The notes beneath the pieces are model-generated. The model was not told the DNA's origin. It did no database searches and worked only from the letters and a program-made list of their open reading frames with translations. 64,000 bases of DNA. Source: Emcibacter sp. SYSU 3D8. GTDB taxonomy: Bacteria; Pseudomonadota; Alphaproteobacteria; SMXS01. The position numbers were made by a program, and so were the translations under genes. The stretch covers positions 1 through 64,000 of the forward strand of contig NZ_JBBYXK010000006.1 of NCBI RefSeq assembly GCF_039655875.1. Reading direction: 5' to 3'. Positions 43,590 through 49,561 of this stretch are shown piece after piece (the first letter of the stretch is position 1; each line of letters opens with the position of its first letter).

Positions 43590-44966
43590 ATGACATCAAA
43601 AAACTTGATGCGGATCACCTTTCTCGGCGCCGTGGGAACCGTGACCGGCTCGAAATATCTGGTGCGCGCCGGCAAGGCCCGCCTGCTGGTGGACTGCGGA
43701 TTGTTTCAGGGCTTCAAGAATCTGCGGCTGCGAAACCGGGCGCCCCTGCCGCTGGATCCGGCTTCGCTGGACGCGGTAATCCTGACCCATGCCCATCTGG
43801 ATCATTCCGGCTACCTGCCTCTGCTGGTTCGCAACGGCTTCCACGGGCCCGTCCTGTGCACGCCCGGCACCGCCGATCTGTGCCGCATCCTGCTGCCGGA
43901 CAGCGCCATGCTGCAGGAACGGGACGCGGACTTCGCCAACCGACACGGCACCTCGAAGCATCACCCGGCACAGCCGCTCTATACCAGAAAGGATGCCGAG
44001 CGCGCGCTGGGACAGCTGCGCTGCATGAACTATGGCGAGGACGCCCGCATCGGCAAGGGTGTCACGCTGCGCTTCGACCAGGCCGGCCACATCCTGGGCT
44101 CGGCATTGACCCGGCTGACCTGGAAGGGCACCAGCCTGCAGTTCTCGGGCGACCTTGGCCGGCCCGAATCCGCCACCCTGCCCGCGCCGGCGACAATCGA
44201 GGAAGCTGACTACCTGGTGGTGGAATCCACCTATGGCGACCGGCAACATCCGCATGTCGATCCGGAGACCATGCTGGCGGATGTGATCAACCGGACCAGC
44301 GGCCGGGGCGGCTCCGTGGTGATCCCGGCCTTCGCCGTGGGCCGCACCCAGACGCTGCTCTATCACCTGGCGCGGCTGAAGCACGAGCAGCGGATTCCCG
44401 ACCTGCCCATCTTTCTCGACAGCCCCATGGCGATCAACGCCACGGAGACATTCGAGCGGCATCCCAACGAGCACAAGCTGACGCGCAAGCAATGCCACGA
44501 GGCGTTCGACGTCGCCACCTATGTGCGGGATCCGGAGGACTCAAAGGCGCTGGACCGCTCGGCCATGCCCATGGTGCTGGTGTCGGCCAGCGGCATGGCG
44601 ACCGGCGGTCGGGTGCTGCACCACCTGATGCATTTCGCCCCGGATCCGCGCAACACCATCCTGTTCGCAGGATTCCAGGCCGGCGGCACGCGGGGCGCGG
44701 CCATAGTCGCCGGCGCCCGTGAGGTGAAGATTTTCGGCAATTACGTGCCGGTCAGGGCCGAGGTGCAGAACATGGACATGTTCTCGGCCCATGCGGATGC
44801 CGACGAGATCATGGCATGGCTGGGCGGCTTCCGCCGCCCGCCAAAGATGACCTTCGTGACCCATGGCGAGCCGGCCGCCGCCGACGCCCTGCGCCACCGC
44901 ATCGAGGAGGGGCTGGGCTGGGACTGCATGGTGCCCGACTACAAGGAACGCTACGACCTGGACTAG
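43590..44966 (+). CDS. beta-CASP metallo-beta-lactamase-fold RNA hydrolase
   Basis: The 458-residue protein has the MBL motifs: LTHAHLDHSGYLPLL (HxHxDH), DQAGHILGSALTRL and SGDLGRPESATLPAP. The beta-CASP part has VVESTYGDRQHP, AVGRTQTLLYHLARL and PMVLVSASGMATGGRV. AHADADEIMAWL follows, then the C-terminal FVTHGEPAAADAL with the last His. It belongs to the CPSF-like RNA exonuclease family. Starts at 43590 and 43608 are both possible, and neither has a strong ribosome-binding site. Confidence 0.93.
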   Translation: MTSKNLMRITFLGAVGTVTGSKYLVRAGKARLLVDCGLFQGFKNLRLRNRAPLPLDPASLDAVILTHAHLDHSGYLPLLVRNGFHGPVLCTPGTADLCRILLPDSAMLQERDADFANRHGTSKHHPAQPLYTRKDAERALGQLRCMNYGEDARIGKGVTLRFDQAGHILGSALTRLTWKGTSLQFSGDLGRPESATLPAPATIEEADYLVVESTYGDRQHPHVDPETMLADVINRTSGRGGSVVIPAFAVGRTQTLLYHLARLKHEQRIPDLPIFLDSPMAINATETFERHPNEHKLTRKQCHEAFDVATYVRDPEDSKALDRSAMPMVLVSASGMATGGRVLHHLMHFAPDPRNTILFAGFQAGGTRGAAIVAGAREVKIFGNYVPVRAEVQNMDMFSAHADADEIMAWLGGFRRPPKMTFVTHGEPAAADALRHRIEEGLGWDCMVPDYKERYDLD

Positions 44967-45015
44967 CCGTGCCGCCTCGCCGGGACGCCGTGCGCCGCCG
45001 GCGGGAAAGGCCGGA

Positions 45016-45474
45016 TCAGTCGAACGTGTCGCGCAGGCCGTAGAATTCCCGCGTCGGCCACAGGAAATCGATGCGGGTGCGGTGGATCTTCCAGGCGCCG
45101 TCCACCTTCTTGTAGACGTCGTCATAGACGCCGAACAGGGTGAGCGGTTTGGGCGCGCCGGGCGACACGTTCAGGTTGAGCTGGTACCAGCGCCCATTGG
45201 CGGTGTCCTTGTCGATCAGCCGGATCCAGGGGTTGGTGACCGCGTGCATCTGGGAGTGCTCCAGACGGCCGCTGCCATAAAGGAAATCGTGGTAGCGGGC
45301 GCGGATCTGGTCCTTGCCGACCCAGTCGCCGCCGAAATTCGGGCCGAACTCGCAGATGGCGTCGTCGGTGAACAGGCTGACCAGCTCGTCCAGCTTGTTG
45401 CCGTCGTAATAGTGAGAATAGAGATGGCGCATCTGCTTGATGGCCTCGATCTCCAGCAGCTCCTCGATGGTCAT
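45016..45474 (-). CDS. SnoaL-like NTF2-fold protein
   Basis: The 152-residue protein has the SnoaL-like pattern: an N-terminal helix (TIEELLEIEAIKQMRHLYSHYYDGNKLDELVSLF), TDDAICEFGP, IRARYHDFL, MHAVTNPWIRL, and GAWKIHRTRIDF at the end. The family includes isomerases, dehydratases and other small-molecule enzymes. The catalytic type is not clear. GGGGAGGA stands five bases before the ATG at 45474. The retron cassette starts just upstream. Confidence 0.85.
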   Translation of the reverse strand: MTIEELLEIEAIKQMRHLYSHYYDGNKLDELVSLFTDDAICEFGPNFGGDWVGKDQIRARYHDFLYGSGRLEHSQMHAVTNPWIRLIDKDTANGRWYQLNLNVSPGAPKPLTLFGVYDDVYKKVDGAWKIHRTRIDFLWPTREFYGLRDTFD

Positions 45475-45562
45475 GGCATTCCTCCCCTGCGGTTCGGCGG
45501 CGAGCCTAGCGCATGGGCCGGAGAGGGCCAAGCCTTCACGCGTGAATTTGAGTCCGACCAAC

Positions 45563-46594
45563 CTACAGCTCTTCACCGTCCAAAATTTGTTTCTCCACTG
45601 CAATTGCTTCCATGTAATGAGTCATCACATCACTTTGCCCCTCTACAAGGGCAAGATAAGAAACCCTACCTTGTAACTGCTCGAGATATAGTGGATCCAA
45701 ATTTAATCGCTCGCTACTGGATATCACTCCAAACTTTTCTAGATAATAAATCTCTTGACGAACACTTTTCTTAAAGGCCCGCGGCAGACGAGGTTTCAAT
45801 CCATTCACGACGATTCCAGTTACGATTTTTCTACTATTTTCCCAGATAAAATGGGTTTTTCTGCCATTTATTTCGAACCCCTCCCCCCTAACAATCTCAC
45901 TGACAAAATTTATCCAGCTAGGTTCTATACTAAAACCAGAAATTGCAATATCGTCTGCATATCTTGTGTATTTCGCGCCTTTCGCACTCGCGAGACTGAA
46001 CAACCTATTGTCAAGCTTCCGAGCGATTATATTACTAACATAAGGGCTTGTAGGCGCACCTTGTGGAAGTTTTCCATTTAAACAGCATATCGATGCCAGG
46101 TAGAATGCCGCGTTTAAAGGATACCCGAACTGCCGGAACATCCCAATCACCCGTGGCAAGGAAATGCTCGGAAAGAAATCCTTTATGTCCATTTTGAGAA
46201 GCCTGCCGCAACCGAGATGCTGGGAGGCATTGGACAAAATGCCTTTTCCTTTTATAAAACCATGAGCCGCATAATGAACGTCTATTTTTTCTAATATTTC
46301 CGTTAGAATTACGCGCTGTATGGCCATTAGAGATGGTTTTGGAACTGCTATCTCGCGCGAGCCACCGGTTCGCTTCGCAATATTGAAATTCCGGTAGAAG
46401 CCATTAGACCTATTAATAATATCTGCTAACAATTCATCCTGAACTCCCAAATATTCTGCCAATTGACCAAAATCTAGAACGACTGGCAGCTCGTTGTCAG
46501 AGAGTCTTCTGAGCGCAGTCTCTATTCCCCGTGTTTGATCGAGGCGTAGATTCCACTTCGATAAAGCGTCGAGAAAATCATCAAGCGCAGACAT
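45563..46594 (-). CDS. retron reverse transcriptase
   Basis: The 343-residue RT has all the landmarks of a retron enzyme: NASQH at 122-126 (NAxxH of region X), MDIKDFFPS at 135-143 (motif A), QGAPTSP at 178-184 (motif B), YADD at 212-215 (catalytic motif C) and VTG at 258-260 (region Y). It copies part of its own RNA into msDNA from a 2'-5' branch. The RNA gene lies immediately upstream. The gene is AT-richer than its chromosome context, which suggests transfer. It is not a group II intron RT, because no maturase domain follows. Confidence 0.93.
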   Translation of the reverse strand: MSALDDFLDALSKWNLRLDQTRGIETALRRLSDNELPVVLDFGQLAEYLGVQDELLADIINRSNGFYRNFNIAKRTGGSREIAVPKPSLMAIQRVILTEILEKIDVHYAAHGFIKGKGILSNASQHLGCGRLLKMDIKDFFPSISLPRVIGMFRQFGYPLNAAFYLASICCLNGKLPQGAPTSPYVSNIIARKLDNRLFSLASAKGAKYTRYADDIAISGFSIEPSWINFVSEIVRGEGFEINGRKTHFIWENSRKIVTGIVVNGLKPRLPRAFKKSVRQEIYYLEKFGVISSSERLNLDPLYLEQLQGRVSYLALVEGQSDVMTHYMEAIAVEKQILDGEEL

Positions 46595-46613
46595 TGGCCC
46601 CCAGCGTCATGGT

Positions 46614-46800
46614 GTGCAGCGCTGACCGCTACCTACTTACTGATTCATCCTGCGAAACGCCGAACCCACCCCAAGCGAGGCAGTTTCGTGCGCTTGTAAA
46701 GCGCGAGGGTGGCGGACTTCGCCACCCTCATCGTTAACGCGACCATTCGGACCAGAGGCGACTCGCCTCCCTGGCTCTAGCCGCCAACGCTGCACGTACA
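46614..46800 (-). ncRNA. retron msr-msd RNA
   Basis: On the minus strand a1 (46785-46795, GTGCAGCGTTG) pairs with a2 (46614-46624, CAGCGCTGCAC) over 11 bases with one G-U. Between them lie a hairpin at 46752-46774, a perfect 10-bp hairpin at 46705-46729, a small GCGCTT/AAGCGC hairpin at 46690-46704, and an msd-like stem (46653-46661 with 46679-46688). This order of a1, msr hairpins, msd and a2, ahead of an RT gene, is the retron pattern. Exact transcript ends and the branching G are not determined. Confidence 0.82.
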
Positions 46801-46826
46801 AAGGTTATTAAGTTTAGAACGGTCGG

Positions 46827-47162
46827 TCAATTCGCGAAATAGGCTCGCGCCAACGCCTTCCTCTTCGGTGTGTATGTGTCAGTACGTGGCGCTAAACCAA
46901 TTGGATCTTTCCAAGGAGCCGCAACATTAATGAACAGCTGTTTACGCATCCGAAGCGCCCAAGTTCGGCCGTACCTAGTCATTATGAACCTCCCCGATTC
47001 CTCGACAACCACTTTATTTTCTCTTAGCCACTCAAGAGCAGAAATTATTTGAATGGGAGACAGCCGATATTTCAAATGAAAGTCATATGGCACCAAACCA
47101 TTCCGGTTAGCAAAAAGGCTACGCAAAATTTCTCTGTCGGCAGATGTCAACTCTCTCAACAT
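46827..47162 (-). CDS. winged-helix protein of the retron
   Basis: The 111-residue protein has a winged-helix pattern: LTSADREILRSLFANRNGLV, then IQIISALEWLRENKVVVEESGRFIMT. Its start directly follows the stop of the PRTase-like gene (TGA then ATG) with AGGAG upstream. In type III retrons a DNA-binding protein of this kind accompanies the PRTase-like effector. It may bind msDNA. Confidence 0.75.
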   Translation of the reverse strand: MLRELTSADREILRSLFANRNGLVPYDFHLKYRLSPIQIISALEWLRENKVVVEESGRFIMTRYGRTWALRMRKQLFINVAAPWKDPIGLAPRTDTYTPKRKALARAYFAN

Positions 47163-48026
47163 TCAAATTCTCCTAAATATCACTGGTCGTCTCGATTTAT
47201 CTATGTACTTTGGCCACCAAAATATTGGAAAGACGTTATCTGGCACATTCCAATCTTGCATACAAAATAATGATTCCGATTGCTGATATCCAAAGCTTTG
47301 AAGAGGGGCGCGTTTAATGGTTTTTGCCAAATCCTGCTCAAGACGCTTCATATGAGCAATATTATTTGGAAGCTCTACTCCAGAGTAATTTCCCGAAATA
47401 CCTTTTTTCAACCAAACCGGACAATAGGTGTCAATTTTTTCATCCAAAAGCCGATCTCTAGCATTTTCCATACCGGCTGCCGCCGTCACATACATTTTAA
47501 CGTGTGCCATGCCCATGGCTGCCAACCGATTCTCAAGCGATCTATATCTCGAAATCATCGTTTCGCCGGTGCCAATAAAGTCATCAAGAAGAACCATATT
47601 GTTCTTACCATTCAGTCTTTTTAGGCCCTCAGGCACGCTATTAACAAATGATCTGCCGGTCCAATTGTCATCGGGATCAAATTTATTCTTTATAATCTGC
47701 AAAAACGCCTGAGATCCATCAGCATCTCCGTCATCGCTAATAGCCACAATTATTGAGTCATCAGCGGACAAATTCCACCTCCTCTCAATCACCTTAGCAA
47801 TAGAGGTTGCCATATCATTCTGCAAGTTACTATCAGCAACATAGAATCTTCGAATTAGATCATTAATTAAATCTCTTTCCCCCTGAGTTTGGCACTTATT
47901 CCAAAGCGCCAGCACGCCAGCGCTGGACCTCTTCAGCCAATTACAATCATTGAAGAGGGAATACAATTGCTCAAAGTCGGCAGGATCCATAATTGCCACT
48001 GCTCTGGGAAGCTCGTCTTCACTCAC
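47163..48026 (-). CDS. PRTase-like retron effector
   Basis: The 287-residue protein has a phosphoribosyltransferase-like signature, NNMVLLDDFIGTGETM (about 143-157, the PRPP-binding loop type). It is preceded by SIIVAISDDGDADGSQAF and followed by AHVKMYVTAAAGMENARDRL. Phosphoribosyltransferase-like proteins are the effector of type III retrons. I chose GTG at 48026 because AGGAG lies six bases upstream. A TTG at 48041 is also open. Order and composition tie it to the RT. The substrate is unknown. Confidence 0.75.
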   Translation of the reverse strand: MSEDELPRAVAIMDPADFEQLYSLFNDCNWLKRSSAGVLALWNKCQTQGERDLINDLIRRFYVADSNLQNDMATSIAKVIERRWNLSADDSIIVAISDDGDADGSQAFLQIIKNKFDPDDNWTGRSFVNSVPEGLKRLNGKNNMVLLDDFIGTGETMISRYRSLENRLAAMGMAHVKMYVTAAAGMENARDRLLDEKIDTYCPVWLKKGISGNYSGVELPNNIAHMKRLEQDLAKTIKRAPLQSFGYQQSESLFCMQDWNVPDNVFPIFWWPKYIDKSRRPVIFRRI

Positions 48027-48106
48027 GAACTGCTCCTGCAATATTAGAAAGAGAATAGCCTAAGGCACATGGTATATTGATCACAAGGTTAGATTAAAGT
48101 GAGTCC

Positions 48107-49561
48107 TTATCCCAGCTTCTTTTTCAGCAGCTCGTTGACCTGGGCCGGATTCGCCTTGCCCTGGCTCTGCTTCATCACCTGGCCGACGAACCAGCCGATG
48201 ACCTTCGGATTGGCGCCGCCGTCATACTGGGCGACCTGGCCGGGATTGTCGGCGATGATCTTGTCGACGATGCCTTCGATGAAGCCGGTGTCGGTGATCT
48301 GCTTCAGGCCCTTTTCCTCGACGATCACCGCCGGGTCGCCGCCGGTTTCCGCCATGATCTCGAACACGTCCTTGGCGATGCGGCCGGAGATGGTGTTGTC
48401 GGCGATCAGGTCGATCAGCTTGCCCAGGTTGGCGGCGGTCACCGGGCTTTCGGTGATCGACACGCCTTTGGCGTTGAGCGCGGCGAACAGGCTGCCGGTG
48501 ACCCAGTTGGACGCCTGCTTGGCATCGCGGCCCTTGGCCACTTCCTCGAAATAGACGCCGATCTCGGGCTCGGAGACCATCACGCCCGCGTCATAGACCG
48601 ACAGGCCGAAGTCGCGCATCAGGCGGTTCTTCTTCTCGTCGGGCAGCTCGGGCAGGCCGGCCCTGATCTCCTCGACCCAGTCGGGATCGAGTTCCAGCGG
48701 CAGCAGGTCCGGATCGGGGAAGTAGCGGTAGTCGTGCGCCTCTTCCTTCGAGCGCATGGAGCGGGTTACGCCCTGCGCCACGTCGTAGAGACGGGTCTGC
48801 TGGACGATGGCGCCGCCGTCCTCGATCACGTCGATCTGGCGGCGCGCCTCGTATTCGATGGCCTGCTGCACGAAACGCACCGAATTGACGTTCTTGATCT
48901 CGCAGCGCGTGCCCAGCGGACCGCCCGGCTTGCGCACCGATACGTTGACGTCGGCGCGCATGGAGCCCTGCTCCATGTTGCCGTCGCAGGTGCCGATATA
49001 GCGCAGGATGGTGCGCAGCTTCTTCAGATAGGCCCCCGCCTCTTCCGACGATCGCATGTCGGGCTTGGACACGATCTCCATCAGCGCCACGCCCGACCGG
49101 TTCAGGTCCACATAGGTCATGCTCGGATGCTGGTCGTGCATGGACTTGCCGGCGTCCTGCTCGAGATGCAGGCGCTCGATGCCGACCTCCTTGGTCTCGC
49201 CGTCCTTCAGGTCGAGGGTAATGATCCCCTCGCCCACCACCGGCTGCTTGTACTGGGAAATCTGGTAGCCCTGCGGCAGGTCGGCGTAGAAATAGTTCTT
49301 CCGGTCGAAGATCGAATAGAAGTTGATCTGTGCCTCAAGCGCCAGGCCGGTGCGCACCGCCTGCTCGACGCAATAGCCGTTGATCACCGGCAGCATGCCA
49401 GGCATGGCGGCGTCCACCAGGCTGACCTGGGTGTTGGGTTCGGCGCCGAATTCGGTGGACGCGCCGGAGAACAGCTTGGAATTGGAGGTGATCTGGGCGT
49501 GGACCTCGAGGCCGATGACCACTTCCCACTCGCCGGTCGCGCCGGAAATCAGCTTGGACAT
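48107..49561 (-). CDS. gatB: Asp-tRNA(Asn)/Glu-tRNA(Gln) amidotransferase subunit B
   Basis: GatB recognises misacylated tRNA and activates it for amidation. The 484-residue protein has the family core ([78 protein letters not shown]). A C-terminal YqeY-like helical tail ends [15 protein letters not shown]. The ATG overlaps the gatA stop. Longer start codons lie inside gatA. The retron inserts just past its end. Confidence 0.98.

Follow-up and report, generated by a model that had tools for sequence, protein, structure and literature searches.

A divergent type III-A retron with a compact noncoding RNA in Emcibacter sp. SYSU 3D8

Genes of the locus and their genomic setting

Within the 64-kb stretch of DNA analyzed here (the window), a PRTase gene, a winged-helix (WH) gene, a noncoding RNA (ncRNA) and a reverse transcriptase (RT) gene follow one another in this order on the minus strand, the ncRNA lying in the 232-nt gap between the WH and RT genes. 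Retrons are bacterial antivirus systems that make small pieces of DNA from RNA. At the level of genes, the locus comprises the following features:

45550 to 48110, no strand assigned: whole retron island, 2.56 kb (G+C contrast; empty sites of siblings)
47163 to 48041, minus: PRTase_III-A/PRTase-CE, effector, 292 aa, TTG start with an ATG alternative at 47990 (PADLOC, 5.1e-86; Pfam PRTase-CE, 9.3e-20)
46827 to 47162, minus: WH_III-A, winged-helix accessory protein, 111 aa (PADLOC, 8.8e-9)
46614 to 46795, minus: retron ncRNA (msr-msd), 182 nt
45563 to 46594, minus: retron RT, 343 aa (PADLOC RT_III-A, 1.8e-115; Pfam RVT_1, 1.2e-19)

Using PADLOC, it was found that III-A models match all three genes, with PRTase and WH proteins of III-A families adjoining the RT; the assignment is made at the level of III-A, finer subtypes being left aside. 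RT_III-A models account for five of the seven best PADLOC matches to the RT, while the NCBIfam retron models match it below their cutoff (best, 224.7 versus 235 bits). The RT falls in the retron clade and carries residues, seen in the alignment, that we take to be the motifs NAxxH (N122 to H126), YADD and VTG; N122, H126, D136, D214, D215 and G260 are invariant across 15 sequences.

The PRTase carries a PRPP-loop-like sequence, LLDDFIGTGET, which in relatives reads roughly hh(D/E)(D/E)FxG(T/S)G, with G157 and G159 invariant in 24 sequences and D153 present in at least 90%. An AlphaFold2 model of the protein (pLDDT 92) has a type I PRTase fold. Foldseek returned a best E value of 8.7e-4 for this model at a low TM of 0.35, and VIA gave Z scores of up to 12.5, the first two rows covering 119 to 155 residues at 2.8 to 4.5 Å. 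A sequence search of the PDB with the PRTase alignment yielded weak matches on the PRPP motif alone (0.0089 at best), and none of three candidate stretches for a PRTase in viral contigs was a relative. The WH gene starts where the PRTase gene stops, and its product has no Pfam match above the cutoff and no NCBIfam match.

A second retron-type RT is encoded on the minus strand of the same genome (L002:1378-2304; G000:C1:1231096-1231836), with RT_VI as its best match (1.5e-76). An open reading frame upstream of it (L002:2301-2885) was labeled helix-turn-helix-like from a reading of its translation, and the locus is likely a type VI retron.

The island has a G+C content of 44.6%, compared with 62.7% in the rest of the window, the ncRNA itself being at 62%. 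Of six same-genus genomes examined, five have both flanks aligned on one contig, and in all five the retron is missing at this site; the sixth (G006) was set aside as its locus is split over contigs, and genomes of other genera were not counted. When window positions 45550 to 48110 were compared with the sites of the siblings (L179 to L183), homology was found to stop at 45549 in all five and at 48111 in four (at 48100 in G005). Between the flanks lie approximately 175 nt in G001 and G004, 351 nt in G003, 707 nt in G005 and 718 nt in G002. The G005 insert encodes two proteins, one small and AbrB-like, the other PIN-like, and the G002 insert the same pair with the second frame shortened (labels from reading translations). 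These sharp boundaries and varied inserts indicate that a small exchange site behind gatB is taken up by the retron alone.

An Rfam scan of positions 44900 to 48300 gave three matches, every one below its gathering score. Counts from a promoter and terminator scan were inside the range of shuffles, and a simple terminator scan listed none inside the ncRNA.

Relatives of the retron

To place the locus among its relatives, 80 of the 214 GTDB loci found with the RT were kept. Iterated profiles (E value of 0.01) identified a PRTase in 33 of the 80 and a WH protein as well in 25. Among the 20 nearest GTDB loci (L003 to L022), a PRTase is encoded upstream of the RT in 19 and a WH protein in 19, and relatives with the same gene order hold a structured RNA in the same gap. 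Searches of 60 and of 385 genomes of the class were positive in three each, the genome of the window being among the three, and supplied two further relatives, L084 and L085. One more came from plasmids (L087; L088 matches L085 in its genes and RNA), and viral contigs contributed several. No further copies turned up in the families of two class-mates, where each search covered one genome. Approximately 0.8 kb past the RT of a Pseudomonas III-A retron, matches to Rfam RF01695 and RF03163 mark a C4 antisense RNA together with its target at L016:6780-6979, which suggests a prophage or phage-like neighbor.

In an RT tree of 41 rows, a 24-row clade (support, 98/97) unites the window RT with 22 loci that have a PRTase and/or a WH protein and with L041, a long and uncertain row that has neither; the RT thus groups with other PRTase/WH-linked RTs. 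Other PRTase loci, such as L021, L030 and L075, lie outside this clade. The window RT forms a long branch of its own, lacks a supported sister and is at most 40% identical to any other row of the tree; the best tblastn segment of any relative found (in L023) reaches 46% identity, and the best from plasmids reaches 43%. The enzyme is a III-A retron RT that has no close kin in the collections searched.

Fold and conservation of the ncRNA

The 182-nt RNA folds with a minimum free energy of -93.3 kcal/mol, against a mean of -70.2 kcal/mol for 200 dinucleotide shuffles (z score of -5.60), none of which was as good. All coordinates given for features between 46614 and 46800 in the original prediction proved correct on the minus strand, and the ncRNA can be divided as follows, from its 5' end:

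46778 to 46795, minus: a1 arm (sequence and fold; stem score in 0/60 shuffles; inner pairs covary in 25 sequences)
46777, minus: predicted branching (priming) G, first base after a1 (G in 22/22 alignment rows; role as primer by inference)
46752 to 46774, minus: SL1, msr hairpin with triloop AGT (fold; SL1 pairs covary in relatives)
46730 to 46743, minus: SL2 remnant, weak 4-bp hairpin with a CGTTAA block (fold)
46705 to 46729, minus: SL3, 10-bp hairpin on the template side, at the msr/msd border (RNA and DNA folds)
46690 to 46704, minus: SL4, 6-bp hairpin (RNA and DNA folds)
46653 to 46688, minus: SL5, proposed msd hairpin (present in the DNA fold; paired otherwise in the RNA fold)
46632 to 46652, minus: single-stranded linker before a2, aligning with the AAGAAAGTAG-like block of relatives (3' alignment, in which L087 is misaligned at this point)
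46614 to 46631, minus: a2 arm (sequence, fold and 25-sequence registers)

The a1 arm GTGCAGCGTTGGCGGCTA (46795 to 46778) pairs with the a2 arm TAGCGGTCAGCGCTGCAC (46631 to 46614) at 17 of 18 positions, including two G-U pairs; 13 contiguous pairs are followed by one G/G mismatch and then by GCTA/TAGC, and the stem ends just before the G at 46777. The pairing had been foreseen at a length of 11 bp, which is too short, and had also been described as a perfect 10-bp stem, which is incorrect, as the longest run of pure Watson-Crick pairs is 8. Folding was the check on which the predicted stem had been staked, and the a1/a2 pairing is present in the minimum-energy fold. As for the claim that such a stem is unlikely by chance, the shuffles of the whole RNA bear it out, as does the finding of an equally good end-to-end stem in only 1 of 1,000 dinucleotide shuffles of the 232-nt gap, but the stem taken alone does not: 8 of 987 random stretches of the G+C-rich window have one as good, so that it is suggestive rather than decisive. 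It is conservation in relatives, not the stem alone, that decides the case for a1/a2.

A whole-RNA MAFFT alignment of 19 relatives was unreliable in the template part, and RNAalifold on this alignment found only the SL1 helix, in which five of seven pairs are changed on both sides. For this reason, a1/a2 covariation was counted in hand-set registers, set by eye on typed motifs, at the G and with the pairing in view, and then checked with a motif-free alignment. Over six inner positions in 25 sequences, 131 of 150 cells are paired, compared with 47 to 81 of 150 in six registers offset by 1 to 3 positions; the cell counts are inflated by the presence of near copies (L003/L004, L019/L020 and L099/L103). 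Position 1 is A-T in 21 sequences and T-A in 4; position 2 is T-A in 24 and A-T in 1; position 3 is C-G in 20, A-T in 3 and mispaired in 2; and position 4 is A-T in 13, G-C in 10, T-A in 1 and G-T in 1. The registers also have the G in 25 of 25 sequences, but by construction, because G is the last base of every typed motif. When the 5' parts were aligned with no motif chosen beforehand, the base matching G46777 was G in 22 of 22 rows, and the TCGC side of SL1 and the A of the SL2 block align in 20 to 22 of the 22, the window included. L021, which has no consistent a1/a2, was left out of both the 25-sequence registers and the motif-free alignments. Together with the covariation of the inner pairs, the count of 22 of 22 places the predicted branching G at 46777; hand folding had originally been thought unable to fix either this base or the msDNA length, a caution that holds for the length.

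Each sequence was also compared with its own dinucleotide shuffles over a stretch extended into the WH gene, one mismatch being tolerated. In 15 of 23 sequences, no more than 3 of 60 shuffles had an end-to-end stem as good (0 of 60 for the window). In the other eight (L005, L007, L009, L015, L019, L020, L021 and L085), the stem is not clearly above shuffles (4 to 21 of 60). A first count restricted to the intergenic gap had left many relatives no better than shuffles, in part because a1 extends into the WH gene. L012 was left out of the 25-sequence registers and of the 23-sequence stem and alignment analysis. The PRTase loci outside the nearest group (L028, L030, L034 to L039, L043, L047, L048, L050, L075 and L076) are in no RNA alignment; seven were folded, and 5 to 94 of 100 shuffles had as good a stem.

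The two msr-type hairpins first proposed, at 46752 to 46774 (SL1) and 46705 to 46729 (SL3), both appear in the fold. The triloop of SL1 corresponds to a four-base loop in the consensus of relatives, and the conserved TAAGG..TTTAACC-like element that relatives carry at the position of SL2 is cut down in the window to a 4-bp hairpin around CGTTAA. The proposed msd-type stem at 46653 to 46688 holds as DNA: when the complementary strand of the whole template side was folded as DNA, three tandem hairpins including SL5 were obtained (z score of -5.0). It is absent from the RNA minimum-energy fold, where CUGCCUC pairs with GGGGUGG instead, and SL5 alone as RNA is unremarkable (z score of -1.22; 25 of 200 shuffles as good). 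The 5' piece from 46795 to 46740, folded without a2, is also no better than shuffles (z score of +0.37). Covariation counts cover a1/a2 and SL1.

Interpretation and comparison with known systems

To measure how far the ncRNA departs from its relatives, two covariance models were built: R1 from the first 71 positions of 19 relatives, the window being left out, and R2 from more relatives (22 rows). Alignment A2 omits L020 (a near copy of L019) and the window, and alignment A6 omits L004, L015, L020 and the window. R1 recovers the held-out L020 at 1.3e-15 and, with values of 3.9e-9 or better, four loci from viral contigs, of which two are near copies, and held-out loci of the same clade score 34 to 76 bits. 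On the 64-kb window, the best R1 match starts at the expected base, but at 8.6 bits (E value of 0.61) and with the SL2 part deleted. R2 performs worse on this RNA, which it misses on the window and matches at 5.8 bits (E value of 0.23) on 901 bases around the locus. The ncRNA of the window is thus divergent, like that of the Rhizobium plasmid relative (L087), which scores 9.7 bits with R1. Neither model gave a match better than an E value of 0.2 in the searched PRTase loci outside the clade, and an Rfam scan of four relatives found no retron family. In the held-out L012 (4247-5948), a WH gene, an ncRNA (R1, 2.9e-21) and an RT gene were found, with no PRTase identified by profile; this locus may have exchanged its effector, a change that PMC12548924 describes for Retron-Sda1.

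Taken together, the locus is read as a horizontally acquired type III-A retron, with PRTase, WH, ncRNA and RT on one strand and a conserved a1/a2 stem, at a probability of roughly 0.93; membership in III-A is near certain. The III-A matches of the three genes, the recurring gene order and the adjacent ncRNA, whose paired and covarying a1/a2 ends are followed directly by a conserved G, uphold the type III retron of the original prediction. The window retron, though divergent, is an ordinary representative of a known class.

The weak covariance-model scores, the reduced SL2 and the short msd stem with its competing RNA fold could also be those of a decaying retron, in which the genes remain open while the RNA has lost msr elements (SL2 and the long msd stem) and msDNA is no longer made. 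We consider this improbable, as all three frames are open with their conserved motifs kept, the 17-pair a1/a2 stem is retained, and similar divergence and compactness are seen in the Rhizobium plasmid relative, whose branch is long too. Lower still is the probability that the RNA is an ordinary operon element, acting as an attenuator or as processing hairpins, and that it separates a PRTase/WH pair resembling a toxin-antitoxin system from an RT that works with a different RNA; the equally good stems in random stretches of the window and the lack of an Rfam match above the gathering score fit such an element, but the covariation of a1/a2 and the invariant G found at the corresponding place in relatives do not, nor does a terminator appear within the RNA in the simple scan. 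That the RT belongs to another defense class (DRT, Abi or group II-like) can practically be dismissed, as its weak matches to group_II_RT_mat, Drt2, Drt3a and AbiA reach 10 to 43 bits against 383 for RT_III-A, and its nearest solved structures by sequence are the retron Ec86 RTs (8.3e-42).

For the type III-A retron preferred here, both msDNA synthesis and defense are inferred. In known retrons, the RT uses the 2'-OH of a G beside the a1/a2 stem, and copying starts just 5' of a2. By extension, the RT of the window would bind the ncRNA and extend cDNA from the 2'-OH of G46777, starting on the template immediately 5' of a2; with retron Eco1 as the guide, the first base copied is predicted at about 46633, in the linker. 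The RT would then copy SL5, and perhaps SL4 and SL3, into a hairpin DNA of roughly 50 to 100 nt still joined to the msr RNA. Our best guess, again by analogy, is that the toxin is held by msDNA: the RT-msDNA complex would keep the PRTase silent, the winged-helix protein serving as an adaptor or reading the DNA, until an infecting phage perturbs the msDNA or some host factor and the PRTase is released or activated. Through its PRPP site, the PRTase might then spend or modify a nucleotide pool, so that growth stops (abortive infection); for nucleotide depletion as the effector chemistry, we see about even odds.

A tentative idea, more doubtful than probable, is that the ncRNA is pared down in the deep alphaproteobacterial III-A branches (the window locus and its counterpart on the Rhizobium plasmid), with almost no SL2, here a triloop SL1, and several short tandem template hairpins replacing the long msd stem. 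If true, this would give a multihairpin msDNA of approximately 100 nt, read differently by the winged-helix partner. The locus leaves the general picture of retrons unchanged but adds a divergent member with an RT at most 46% identical to relatives (best segment), a predicted priming G and a compact RNA. Such a member would help III-A ncRNA models reach alphaproteobacteria, and the shortness of its RNA would be handy for biochemical work on this class.

Among known systems, the type III-A retrons Retron-Ppe1 and Retron-Bpu1 have the same three proteins as the window, a likeness drawn by class and not from a comparison of sequences. In contrast to the III-A loci aligned here, the RNA of the window is compact, with a triloop SL1, a reduced SL2 and a short msd stem. 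Both named retrons are treated experimentally in PMC12548924, according to which Retron-Bpu1 makes RT-DNA in Escherichia coli but gave no defense against the phages tested, and Retron-Ppe1 could not be transformed into E. coli and is presumed toxic. On that account of Retron-Bpu1, antiphage defense by the III-A class is thinly supported. The mode of action of retron PRTases is described as unknown in PMC9122126, where a DprA-PRTase pair is reported to protect against T7 and lambda.

The retron on the Rhizobium leguminosarum plasmid pRlvC (L087; NZ_CP025505.1) resembles that of the window in its order of PRTase, hypothetical protein and RT, in having an a1/a2 stem of its own (GGGGCGCAGCGATA/TATCGTTGCGCTCC), in loop length (142 versus 146 nt) and in its equally low R1 score, whereas the hairpins of the template part differ. 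Unlike the window retron, it is carried on a conjugative plasmid, where its neighbors are UvrD-helicase, AAA and phospholipase D-like genes (L185; NZ_CP025505.1, 20000-36000), perhaps a defense island. Retron-Eco1 (Ec86, type II-A) provides the RT structure nearest to the window RT by sequence. Its a1/a2 stem ends in TTA followed by the priming G, an arrangement shared with the window, where the role of the G is predicted, and its effector is NDT-like, unlike the PRTase and winged-helix pair encoded here.
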